Source: Candidatus Bathyarchaeota archaeon
GTDB taxonomy: Archaea; Thermoproteota; Bathyarchaeia; Bathyarchaeales; Bathycorpusculaceae
Length of the DNA: 38,430 nt
Reading direction: 5' to 3'
Assembly (NCBI GenBank): GCA_029879735.1
Contig: JAOUPS010000007.1
Location: 1-38,430, forward strand
How positions within the stretch are numbered: the stretch's first letter is position 1; every line of letters begins with the position of its first letter. Shown piece by piece: positions 6,495 to 23,472 of the stretch. The translations under genes and the position numbers were made by a program. The notes beneath the pieces are model-generated. The model was not told the DNA's origin. It did no database searches and was given only the letters and a program-made list of their open reading frames with translations.

Positions 6495-7322
6495 TCACAA
6501 AAAAAGTTTTAGGGCTATGCATCCGCAAAGCATGAGGATTAGGCTGTGTTTCAGTCCAGCATTTATAGTTCCTTCCCCCATTTTTCCTGCGACAAGTCCC
6601 CCGAAAAAGGCTTGAATCGATGTCATGTGAAAGAACATTCGCTGCATCTCTTCGGGTGCCATCACCGCTGACCCAAGTATTGGCAAGCCCTCTATGCTCG
6701 AGAAAAACGACTTGAAAAGCAGTATGATTGTGAATAAGAACACGAAAAAGGCCACATATATTATCGCAATGTATGATCTCGTCTGGTTTCGCCGTTCCTT
6801 GTCAAGCAGAAGCGTTGTCTGTACAAACTTACCCATTGGGTCAAAAACCCTTTCCACACGTCCTCCGGAACGGCTTGCCTCAATGATCATCGGCACAGTT
6901 CTCTGCATAAGCACGGTGTTGACACGCCTTCCAAAAGCGAGAAGAGCCTCTTCAAAAGTCATTCCCCAAGAAATCTGTGTAGTCATTCTTTTCAGTTCAG
7001 CCGTAAGCGGACCATAATCTCTCTTAGAGGCTCCTTCCAAGGCTTGGGGAAGGGTCATGCCCGTCTCTTGGGCCTGAACTATGCTTCTGAAAAGATCTGG
7101 TAGGTGCTCGTCCACGGCTTTTCTCCATTTGTAATCCACATAGTTTAGGACTGTTGGAGGGAAAACGGCAACCATGAGGGCGAGGAGAACAAACTCGTCG
7201 AATGTTGGGGTTCTCCAAAACGTGAAGTAGGCAGATAAGATTATGACCACAGCTAAGGAAACAGAGACAACCCACGCAAGTTTTTTCTCATGCTTCTCTA
7301 TTTTCGGCATTTCCACTACCAT
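6495..7322 (-). CDS. Type II/IV secretion platform protein, TadC/FlaJ-like (second F-domain protein)
   Basis: An integral membrane protein of 275 aa with a T2SSF (GspF/FlaJ-type) domain: two N-terminal helices (15-60), a cytoplasmic helical F domain with DLFRSIVQAQETGMTLPQAL and WGMTFEEALLAFGRRV, then a helix pair near 180-205 and a C-terminal pair. It should form the inner platform that couples the secretion ATPase to pilin assembly. The ATG at 7322 overlaps the preceding platform gene (stop at 7316); an ATG four codons in has a slightly better purine-rich leader. Having two separate F-domain proteins resembles the Tad (TadB/TadC) arrangement rather than a single FlaJ. Confidence 0.87.
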   Translation of the reverse strand: MVVEMPKIEKHEKKLAWVVSVSLAVVIILSAYFTFWRTPTFDEFVLLALMVAVFPPTVLNYVDYKWRKAVDEHLPDLFRSIVQAQETGMTLPQALEGASKRDYGPLTAELKRMTTQISWGMTFEEALLAFGRRVNTVLMQRTVPMIIEASRSGGRVERVFDPMGKFVQTTLLLDKERRNQTRSYIAIIYVAFFVFLFTIILLFKSFFSSIEGLPILGSAVMAPEEMQRMFFHMTSIQAFFGGLVAGKMGEGTINAGLKHSLILMLCGCIALKLFL

Positions 7323-8293
7323 CTAGGCGAAGTAGCATCCAAAATTATCAGAAATACTATGGAACCCAGCGGGATTCCAAGATACGTGATCATGCTGAGC
7401 AAAAGATCTGGGCCTAGCATGCCTAGGCCGCCTCCGCCAAGCATAGCCATAACCGCAAGCATAATAACAAAAAGCAAAGGTCCTGTGACAAGCAAAGCCA
7501 CGTAGAACTCCGATAAAATGGACAAGGTGTCGGAAAACTTCTGTAGGCTGATTCTCTTTAGCTTCATGTACTGCCTAGACTTTTCACGCAGGTAAGCCGC
7601 CAGATCCCCGCCAGAATGTATTGTTGAGATGAATCCTTCCAACATTTCGCGGAACCGTTCAGAGGGAGTTCGCTTCGAAGTTTTCTCCAAAGCAGAGATT
7701 ATGTCCAAACCGAAGAGATTTACGTCTCTAACAACGTTTTTTGCTTCTGCGGAAACAGCCAAAGGCACACTGAGATTTGAGAGTGAATAAAAAATTTTTT
7801 CTGAAGAAACACCAGCACTCGCAAGAATCGCCATATAACCAGTTGTAAACGACAACTCATCCTCTAACTCTCTTCTGAGCTTGTCAGCACGATATATTGG
7901 ATACACATAAAATCCAATTATCGAAAATGCGACTGTGAAAAGGCTTCCGCCAGTACCAAACAAAACCACCGAGAAAAACGGCACATTTAGAACAAAAGTA
8001 AGCAAGCACGGAATAAGAATTAATGCAACGAATGATGTTAAAATTGTAACAAGAACTGTTAGGCTCACGTAAGCCTTGAAATTAATCTTTAACCCAGACC
8101 TCTGCAGGTTTAAGTCCAAATCCCTAAAAAACGGTAAGAAACGACCTGTTTTTTCTCCGATAAGTCGATAGGCTATGGAATGCGGTTTTTCAAGTTCAAG
8201 TTTGAATTTTTCTTGTGATGCCTTCGGCTTAAGTCTCGTTTTGAAACTGTTGAAGAGTCTCTTAATCTTTTCAAGGGTTTTGTTGTTTTTCAT
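7316..8293 (-). CDS. Type II/IV secretion platform protein, TadB/FlaJ-like (first F-domain protein)
   Basis: A 325-aa membrane protein with two N-terminal transmembrane helices (about 70-135), a T2SSF helical domain (DELSFTTGYMAILASAGVSS, FISTIHSGGDLAAYLREKSR) and two C-terminal helices with a glycine-rich link (MAMLGGGGLGMLG). The F-domain pattern of small residues (ASAG, SGGD) is characteristic. It overlaps the ATPase gene by 4 nt (8290-8293) and the next platform gene by 7 nt, showing tight coupling. Together with the following F-domain protein it probably forms a heteromeric platform in the membrane. Confidence 0.87.
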   Translation of the reverse strand: MKNNKTLEKIKRLFNSFKTRLKPKASQEKFKLELEKPHSIAYRLIGEKTGRFLPFFRDLDLNLQRSGLKINFKAYVSLTVLVTILTSFVALILIPCLLTFVLNVPFFSVVLFGTGGSLFTVAFSIIGFYVYPIYRADKLRRELEDELSFTTGYMAILASAGVSSEKIFYSLSNLSVPLAVSAEAKNVVRDVNLFGLDIISALEKTSKRTPSERFREMLEGFISTIHSGGDLAAYLREKSRQYMKLKRISLQKFSDTLSILSEFYVALLVTGPLLFVIMLAVMAMLGGGGLGMLGPDLLLSMITYLGIPLGSIVFLIILDATSPRW

Positions 8294-21593: not shown

Positions 21594-22307
21594 CTAACTC
21601 TTTACATATTCTCCGATTTTTTCGTCGCCTAGCATTTCTAGTTTTTTAGTTGTTGAAGGAACAACCCCTATTTTAATTCTAGGCGGAAGCTGCCTCGCTT
21701 CCAAGGCCTTTACTAAACATTTCACTGCGAGTTTTATGGTGTCTTCAAGCCTCATGTCCTCGCGGTATTCCTCCTTCAACATGTTGATCACAGTTTCTCT
21801 TCCAGCTCCAACGGCTGTAGCCTTGTGGCCTCTATACGTTCCGCTTGGATGCGTCCCAAACAACCGGTTTCCTGTCTTGTCCACCCCGCCAAAAATTATC
21901 GAAACTCCGAAGGGTCTCACGCCTGCGTGTTGTGTGTAGAGCTGTTTTATGTCGCACACTCTTTTTGTTGTCACTTCAACATCTATTGGTTCATCATAAG
22001 TTAACTTATTACTTTGGGCGTATATCCGCGCCTGGTCTATCAATACTCTCGCGTCTGAGCTTAAACCAACTATTGCTGCAGCTATATGGTCGTCAATCTT
22101 GAAGATCTTCCAGGAGTATTCTGTCTCTTCAAGGGCTTCTATGGTCTCTTCTGCTCCTAAAACAACTCCTTCTGAGCATCTTATTCCCAGGATTGTTGCT
22201 CCACGGTTAACCAATTCCATTGCGTATTCAACTTGAAACAGCCGACCGTCCGGTGAGAAAACGGTTATGGCGCGGTCGTACGCCCCTGGTGCCGCAAACA
22301 TAGACAT
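21594..22307 (-). CDS. psmA: Proteasome subunit alpha
   Basis: Alpha subunit (237 aa) of the 20S proteasome, forming the gated outer rings. It has the N-terminal alpha signature YDRAITVFSPDGRLFQVEYA MELVNRG, then GVVLGAEETIEALEETEYSW, the RPFGVSIIFGGVDKTGNRLF strand pair and a C-terminal KIGVVPSTTKKLEMLG. The alpha signature helix rules out beta. It is the first gene of the superoperon block; a BRE/TATA-like promoter lies 55-75 nt upstream at 22360-22380. In many euryarchaea RNase P genes precede psmA; here a decayed region does. Confidence 0.96.
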   Translation of the reverse strand: MSMFAAPGAYDRAITVFSPDGRLFQVEYAMELVNRGATILGIRCSEGVVLGAEETIEALEETEYSWKIFKIDDHIAAAIVGLSSDARVLIDQARIYAQSNKLTYDEPIDVEVTTKRVCDIKQLYTQHAGVRPFGVSIIFGGVDKTGNRLFGTHPSGTYRGHKATAVGAGRETVINMLKEEYREDMRLEDTIKLAVKCLVKALEARQLPPRIKIGVVPSTTKKLEMLGDEKIGEYVKS

Positions 22308-22359
22308 TAATATCTACCTCACAGTATCCCAAACTCAATTGCACACTTTCATATAACAA

Positions 22360-22380
22360 CTATACTAAAAACCTTTTCCT
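22360..22380 (-). promoter_or_regulatory. psmA promoter (BRE/TATA-like), also a repeated 21-mer
   Basis: On the minus strand this reads GGAAAAGGTTTTTAGTATAG, a purine-rich BRE followed by a TATA-like element, 53-73 nt upstream of the psmA ATG. The same 21-mer with one change (T to C at position 7 on the plus strand) recurs at 26730-26750. The shared GAAAAGGTTT core is also found at the ABC transporter promoter near 24112. Confidence 0.5.
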
Positions 22381-22408
22381 ATTTGTCCTGGGCTTTTCCT
22401 TAGTATTC

Positions 22409-22564
22409 CTATTTGCGTTTTCTGAAGATTTTGCCTTCGTCATGGTATTCGCCTGTAACGTATTCAAAGCCTACTTCTAGGAGTCTTATGGCTTCTTGAG
22501 TGTTATAGGCTACTTTGACATGATATTCGTCAGATTTTTCTGTTTCAAACAATATTTTCTCTGC
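22409..22564 (-). pseudogene. C-terminal remnant of a tyrosine recombinase/integrase-like gene
   Basis: A 51-codon open frame with no start, preceded by a TAA, ends at TAG 22409. It reads FETEKSDEYHVKVAYNTQEA, then IRLLEVGFEYVTGEYHDEGK and a basic end FRKRK. From memory, archaeal tyrosine integrases often finish with such a segment (E-S-D-E-Y-x-V-K-V-A, EA..L.E.GFEYV, and a K/R-rich end). The catalytic part (Arg...His-x-x-Arg...Tyr) is gone from this window, so only a dead 3' end remains. Identification is tentative, but the peptide clearly looks like real protein. Confidence 0.45.
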
Positions 22565-22617
22565 TTAAAGCTCTTTCTGGAGGCTGTATGGCATCTTCTG
22601 TTTTGTTGCTGACGTTT

Positions 22618-22857
22618 CTAATAGTAGACAAACAGTTTTTTACTGCAAATAAGGAAGCCTTTGTCTCCTGAATGTTTGTTAATTATACTTAGCAAGCATT
22701 GAATGCAAACGGTTTTTCCCGTCCCAGGCTGGCTGTAAACGAATGTTTTCTAGCTTGATAAGCTCAAAAAAACATCTCGTGGAGAAGCTGCCATCAGTTC
22801 TAACCACTCTTCACGGCGAAGGAGCTTACTGCTCGACGGACTAGGAACTATTGAAGC
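22618..22857 (-). pseudogene. Broken P-loop ATPase fragment resembling Orc1/Cdc6 N-terminus
   Basis: In one reading frame interrupted by a TAG at 22750-22752, the peptide runs VPSPSSSKLLRREEWLELMA, ASPRDVFLSLSS, stop, KTFVYSQPGTGKTVCIQCLL and SIINKHSGDKGFLICSKK before a second TAG at 22618. YSQPGTGKT is a Walker A, and the preceding 'S-K-L-L-R-R-E-E-x-L-E-L-M-A' matches, by eye, the HREE-x-L-x-x-L element in front of the Orc1/Cdc6 P-loop. No Walker B or winged helix follows. A clear pseudogene; Orc1/Cdc6 origin is likely but another AAA ATPase is possible. Confidence 0.5.
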
Positions 22858-22883
22858 CACTTTACATATTAGACAGCTTGAAA

Positions 22884-22923
22884 AAAAGTAGTAGTCGCTA
22901 AGGCCTGTCGGACTACTACTTTT
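22884..22923. repeat. Perfect 13-bp inverted repeat
   Basis: AAAAGTAGTAGTC at 22884-22896 and its exact complement GACTACTACTTTT at 22911-22923, separated by 14 nt that include AGGCCT. A related AGAAGTAGT/ACTACTTCT pair with a longer loop occurs at about 23140-23185. It lies directly upstream of the broken ATPase. It could be a terminator, a protein-binding site of an old replication origin, or an element end. Confidence 0.75.
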
Positions 22924-23472
22924 GAACGGTTCAGTTGTCGTCGTCACAAACATCGTAGACGATGACAAGTGAAAGAGTCCCAGCCAAGACAAGTTACAGA
23001 GGCTCTATCGCAATCGTGCAAAAACTGGCTTAAATGTCGTTGTGGCCTCCCTAGGCCGCCTACAACAACAAATCATCAAGGTCTAAAAATGATGGTGACT
23101 CACACGCAAAAACATGTCGACAAAATAGTTAAAACAGAATTAGAAGTAGTAGTGCAGCGTGCTAGGAAAAGCAGCAACTACTTCTGACTCTTAATAGTTC
23201 GTTTTGTTTGTTGTAATGAGCGTGTATTAGTTGTCTTCAGTAGTCAAAACCAAGAAAAAGAAGGATAAGGATGTGAGCTATGCGGCAAAGGCGAGCCACC
23301 TAGATCGCAGATGCTATGGACATATTCACTCTTAAAGAGGCTTTACATCGGGCGACTATGCCTTTCGAGCATCTGCATTGAGCCGAAAGTCGCAGACTAG
23401 AACGTGAAGAAGAACCCGATAAAATTTGGACTTAGGAGCGCGCCGAACATTCTGACTAGCGAGCGCGCTGTT

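Follow-up and report, generated by a model that had tools for sequence, protein, structure and literature searches.

The window analysed here is a 38,430-nucleotide stretch (contig C94) of an archaeal genome of 2.1 Mb in 156 contigs. Two gene remnants on its minus strand and a palindrome-rich repeat lie immediately upstream of psmA, arranged as follows:

21594–22307, minus strand: psmA, proteasome alpha subunit, intact (Pfam PF00227 and PF10584); the gene at the presumed integration site
22349–22379, minus strand: core of the psmA promoter (BRE/TATA region), GGAAAAGGTTTTTAGTATAGTTGTTATATGA, which hardly varies across 70 genomes and is the presumed core of the attachment site
22380–22408, minus strand: spacer from the integrase stop to the psmA promoter core; probably an element-derived attachment-site arm
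22409–22564, minus strand: C-terminal stub of an archaeal tyrosine integrase (final 50 codons and stop), EKILFETEKSDEYHVKVAYNTQEAIRLLEVGFEYVTGEYHDEGKIFRKRK, found by tblastn and profile matches
22411–22409, minus strand: TAG stop of the integrase-like tail
22618–22857, minus strand: N-terminal fragment (about residues 26–85 of 295) of a short Orc1/Cdc6-like AAA+ ATPase gene, recognized by matches to intact genes in the related genomes G067, G065 and G087
22752–22750 and 22620–22618, minus strand: in-frame TAG codons of the Cdc6-like fragment
22881–23190, no strand assigned: dispersed palindrome-rich repeat with copies on other contigs, separate from the element proper, abutting and truncating the start of the Cdc6-like gene
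22884–22896/22911–22923: perfect 13-bp inverted repeat inside the dispersed repeat (100% complementary)

Rfam families and tRNA genes were both searched for in the window and none was found, so no tRNA target is present here. Between the repeat and a padR gene, a 119-bp segment (23302–23420) is 75% identical to positions 6812–6930 of contig C12, where it lies downstream of a long ORF.

The minus-strand integrase end at 22409–22564, proposed by the initial annotation from the letters of the DNA, was borne out. The tail was matched by a profile of 67 related integrases with an E value of 2e-11 over profile positions 162–209 of 209, and five shuffles of the set of 70 upstream sequences used below gave no integrase-profile matches. 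It aligned with the C-terminal 50 residues encoded by integrase genes, and by remnants of such genes, in its own genome, and its identity to other integrases of that genome and of the family ranged from 45 to 72%, with the nearest members at 64–72%. Individual values were 64% for a remnant on contig C43, 52% for C53, 45–47% for a pair of full-length integrases on C119 and, over 39 residues, 69% for the integrase of an intact element in G065. The stub therefore belongs to the tyrosine recombinases by sequence homology over the stretch that remains, and its full-length relatives pass PF00589. The catalytic R-H-R-Y residues are absent from the stub, which comprises the C-terminal tail only and so cannot be an active integrase. 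Pfam profiles had also been proposed as a check of both gene fragments; Pfam and PHROGs gave no match to the 50-residue tail alone and weak, sub-threshold generic AAA matches only to the Cdc6-like fragment, so generic libraries would have missed both. The two full-length integrase genes on C119 (L046; 4242–5202 and 9260–10215) are 90% identical, lie 5 kb apart in the same direction and flank a third integrase 3′ remnant (7883–7984), suggesting repeated insertions at one place.

The features attributed to the second fragment (22618–22857), namely its Orc1/Cdc6 likeness, the Walker A motif YSQPGTGKT and two TAG codons, were all present as described, and the Walker A motif is preceded by RREEWLELMA, the REE-x-L element of Orc1/Cdc6 proteins. 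The fragment was 37–46% identical to intact open frames of 298–399 amino acids in G067, G065 and G087 (E values of 1e-10 to 3e-9), compared to about 30% (E near 1e-3) for chromosomal Cdc6 proteins. No other copy of this Cdc6 type was found in its own genome and no relative of the protein was found in the viral contigs searched; the named assemblies that carry relatives are Ca. Bathyarchaeota and one uncultured archaeon. For the intact proteins, matches to archaeal Cdc6 structures were obtained (2QBY, E 1.5e-29), and all three contain the Cdc6 lid domain PF22703 (E 9e-14 to 4e-15), which is absent from the truncated window copy. No winged-helix family was matched in the three intact relatives, and the structural match to 2QBY ends at residue 269 of 295. 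We therefore describe these proteins as Cdc6-like AAA+ ATPases rather than as proven initiators. They share the AAA+ core and lid domain with archaeal Orc1/Cdc6 proteins such as Sulfolobus Cdc6-1 (PDB 2QBY) and differ from them in having no detected winged-helix domain, in being encoded in integrated elements and, in two cases, in lying next to an integrase.

The genomic settings of the intact genes connect the two remnants. All three genes sit within integrated elements that contain a primase, of the AEP-TOTE type (PF22548) in G067 and of the Prim-Pol type (PF09250) in G065. In both G067 and G065, the Cdc6-like gene directly precedes a tyrosine integrase of the window type, which is the order seen in the window. 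In G065, about 40 bp lie between the end of the integrase and the 3′ end of a tRNA-Leu gene. Another relative, in G203 (62%), lacks an adjacent integrase. As the window keeps the order of ATPase then integrase, the two remnants read as one element that has lost most of its middle, and the proposal of a dead integrated element with an integrase and an Orc1/Cdc6-like gene in front of psmA is upheld by intact relatives bearing the same pair in the same order.

The 13-bp inverted repeat had been assigned to the same dead element. It is perfect and lies where it was reported; its assignment to the element did not hold, as it is one palindrome of an independent dispersed repeat of approximately 300 bp (22881–23190). 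Copies or part-copies with 76–91% identity were found on C63, C81, C86, C12 and C144, with short pieces on C54 and C73, and the repeat is absent from the intact elements of G067, G065 and G087. Its start falls at the place expected for the initial ~25 codons of the Cdc6-like gene, which it thus truncates. A 32-base palindrome pattern (three or fewer mismatches) was detected in 9 of 91 family genomes (the reversed control pattern gave 0), and most copies outside the own genome are away from any detectable integrase. The 40-bp palindromic site itself, AGAAGTAGTMGTC-GCTAAGNNCTATAG-GACTACTACTTCT (window 22884–22923; loci L060–L073), has a conserved asymmetric centre and is dispersed in at least nine family genomes. 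It was considered as the core of the integrase attachment site and dropped because in most genomes it is far from a detectable integrase.

Three further loci of the own genome, L047 (C63, 768–1266), L049 (C81, 3803–4240) and L050 (C86, 2693–3003), are copies of one small unit composed of the palindromic repeat, an integrase 3′ stub and an L7Ae-promoter-like core (AAATAGTCGAARYCTTCATAAA). The units sit upstream of L7Ae, cofE and an adenosine-deaminase-like gene and are 77–83% identical. They share a common internal junction, so a derivative without the integrase gene seems to have moved, perhaps with integrase supplied in trans.

We compared 70 psmA upstream regions of the family using the integrase profile and tblastn. 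By profile, an integrase stub was detected in 9 of the 70 genomes, in every case codirectional with psmA and ending 102–122 bp before its ATG. Weaker tblastn matches add G041, G043 and G056, giving 12 genomes from about ten genera, so that at least 11 related genomes carry a similar stub at the psmA position of the window; the upstream region of G050 gave a motif match only. In most stub genomes, 31–33 bp, counting the stop codon, separate the integrase stop from the psmA promoter core, and the spacer is longer in G070. Stub-free congeners were also found (G069 beside G068, and G057 beside G056). Between G068 and G069, similarity covers the BRE and the sequence that follows it; it breaks off exactly at the left edge of the BRE, and farther upstream the two regions differ. 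The upstream comparison that the initial annotation had proposed as a check thus yielded both a recurring stub in other genera and relatives without it. As controls, SMC had no stub near the gene in 30 upstream regions (with one marginal opposite-strand match at −1.4 kb), and L7Ae had a stub in 2 of 30, ending at −103 in the own genome and at −105 in G088; both L7Ae stubs join the conserved L7Ae promoter GTCGAAACCTTCATAAA. A Cdc6-like piece lies beside the stub in the window only and beside none of the other psmA stubs. All these comparisons draw on draft metagenome assemblies, which limit the view further upstream (G075, for example, ends inside the integrase).

The stubs are of two kinds. 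Those of G070, G075 and G068 represent a second integrase type, nearest to integrases elsewhere, and the presence of two types at the psmA site points to recurrent integration. Among six well-preserved stubs of the same type, differences per site were 0.17, 0.06 and 0.44 at codon positions 1, 2 and 3, respectively. Differences biased toward third positions are those of a gene under selection, and an old inherited relic would be expected to lose the bias, which favours repeated integration. From these sequence comparisons, insertions at psmA look recurrent.

Across the 70 genomes, the psmA promoter core GGAAAAGGTTTTTAGTTTAGTTGTTATATGA shows almost no variation. Conservation of this segment (window 22349–22379) is nearly base for base across the family, as it is for the L7Ae promoter, and seems to exceed what a TATA box alone would need.

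Integrases of the window type occur in 70 of 91 family genomes, and 70 of their loci were examined as best hits rather than as a random sample. Among these best hits, 24 have a codirectional tRNA gene starting 17–85 bp past the integrase stop and 16 have a tRNA gene 3′ end past the stop. Integrases directly before a tRNA 5′ end (His, Phe, Ser, Thr, Glu and Pro) were observed at L119, L120, L122, L123, L125–L129, L131, L133, L135, L137, L139, L140, L143, L144, L147, L149, L160, L163, L168, L174 and L184, a placement that the literature describes as rare among archaea. At tRNA-Thr and tRNA-Glu 5′ ends, direct repeats of 25 and 24 bp have second copies about 8 and 33 kb away, respectively, which identifies these as true attachment sites. 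Treating all integrases with a codirectional ORF behind them as promoter insertions was tried and abandoned, as several such ORFs look like shadows of gene ends or RNA genes.

Reported targets of archaeal integrases are mainly tRNA genes, 3′ parts of protein genes and intergenic sites (PMC6563490, PMC8371274). In Thaumarchaeota, integration at tRNA genes involves the 3′ part in all elements but one, and the sites in protein genes are at their 3′ ends (PMC6563490). The cryptic integrated elements described there resemble those studied here as integrase-bearing archaeal elements of unclear nature, the intact relatives here having replication genes and tRNA targets; in contrast to those 3′ targets, the stub here lies at the psmA promoter. 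According to a review of archaeal recombinases, sites in the 5′ half of tRNA genes are unique to pTN3-type integrases (PMC8371274). The pTN3-like integrases of Thermococcales share with the present case the 5′ side of the target gene and the reconnection of the target to upstream sequence at the junction (PMC8371274), and relatives of the window integrase are often found immediately next to tRNA 5′ ends. In the pTN3 type, the site is internal to the integrase gene and integration splits that gene (PMC8371274), whereas here the presumed core lies ~30 bp beyond the integrase stop and the targets include protein-gene promoters. In bacteria, the dusA integrases (PMC4482086) offer a further likeness, being tyrosine integrases that many genomes carry at the 5′ end of a single conserved gene.

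Several searches bear on the point of crossover at psmA. Direct repeats in the window did not reveal an attachment-site duplication of the psmA 5′ region above shuffled background, no second psmA promoter core was found in the flanks, and no intact element at psmA was found among the genomes compared. With neither a second attachment-site copy nor an intact element at psmA, the exact crossover is unproven. The distance of about 30 bp between integrase stop and conserved core in stub genomes does not fit an attachment site within the integrase gene of the SSV/pTN3 type. The psmA promoter looks like a repeatedly used landing site for integrase elements, and we lean, by a small degree, towards a broader model in which integrases of this group use the BRE/TATA promoter cores of essential genes (psmA and L7Ae) as attachment sites, with the element carrying a copy of the core that reconnects the host gene at each integration; the sites would be reused, leaving the stubs as fossils across the family. 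The open-access papers searched do not describe promoter cores as attachment sites in archaea, an absence that is itself weak evidence.

Other histories can be written for this locus. It is quite unlikely, in our judgement, that the stubs go back to one ancient integration at the head of psmA, passed down to all stub-bearing genera and lost in most, with the integrase 3′ end kept because it serves psmA, for example in regulation from upstream or as a short peptide. Such an origin would suit the nearly fixed stub distance, the frequent survival of the last 20–25 codons alone and the almost identical spacers of the window and G043, but it sits poorly with two different integrase types at one site, with congeners lacking the stub (G069 and G057) and with the absence of a shared reading frame or start upstream of the stub. 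Nor would a non-coding relic keep differences mainly at third codon positions.

Within the window, the stub and the Cdc6-like fragment might instead derive from two different elements that landed, or were rearranged, side by side by chance. The two are not joined by continuous sequence, no Cdc6-like piece adjoins the other psmA stubs and integrase remnants are common in this genome; yet the order and direction match the intact G067 and G065 elements, the tail is 69% identical to the integrase of the latter, and the Cdc6 type has no other copy in the genome, which together make a chance juxtaposition unlikely. The initial annotation had also raised an abandoned replication origin. A former chromosomal origin accompanied by an Orc1/Cdc6 gene would suit the co-occurrence of a Cdc6-like sequence and inverted repeats. 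This reading was not borne out and appears extremely improbable: the fragment is nearest to element-encoded ATPases and far from chromosomal Cdc6, its intact relatives are short and have no detected winged-helix domain, and the palindrome is dispersed in the own genome and in other genera.

We consider it likely that the window holds the gene-proximal stub of a Bathyarchaeial plasmid-like element, encoding a Cdc6-like ATPase and then a tyrosine integrase, that was once integrated at the psmA promoter and then decayed, at a site repeatedly used in related genera. In the proposed course of events, the integrase would have joined the attachment site of the circular element to a matching site overlapping or abutting the psmA BRE/TATA box, and the psmA promoter would have been rebuilt at the junction, so that psmA presumably stayed expressed. 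During decay, approximately 1.7 kb separating the ATPase Walker A region from the final 50 integrase codons would have been lost, stop codons would have arisen and the dispersed palindromic repeat would have come to abut the ATPase gene at its start. Selection on the essential psmA promoter would bar deletions from it, and the adjoining integrase 3′ end may persist for that reason. The same site would have been used repeatedly in related genera.

If attachment at promoter cores is true, it would explain how elements land harmlessly next to psmA or L7Ae, and integrase stubs at about −100 would provide a simple finder of fossil insertions in uncultured archaea. Element DNA would then have repeatedly rebuilt two promoters, that of the proteasome/exosome operon and that of a ribosomal protein gene, and their regulation could change in the process.
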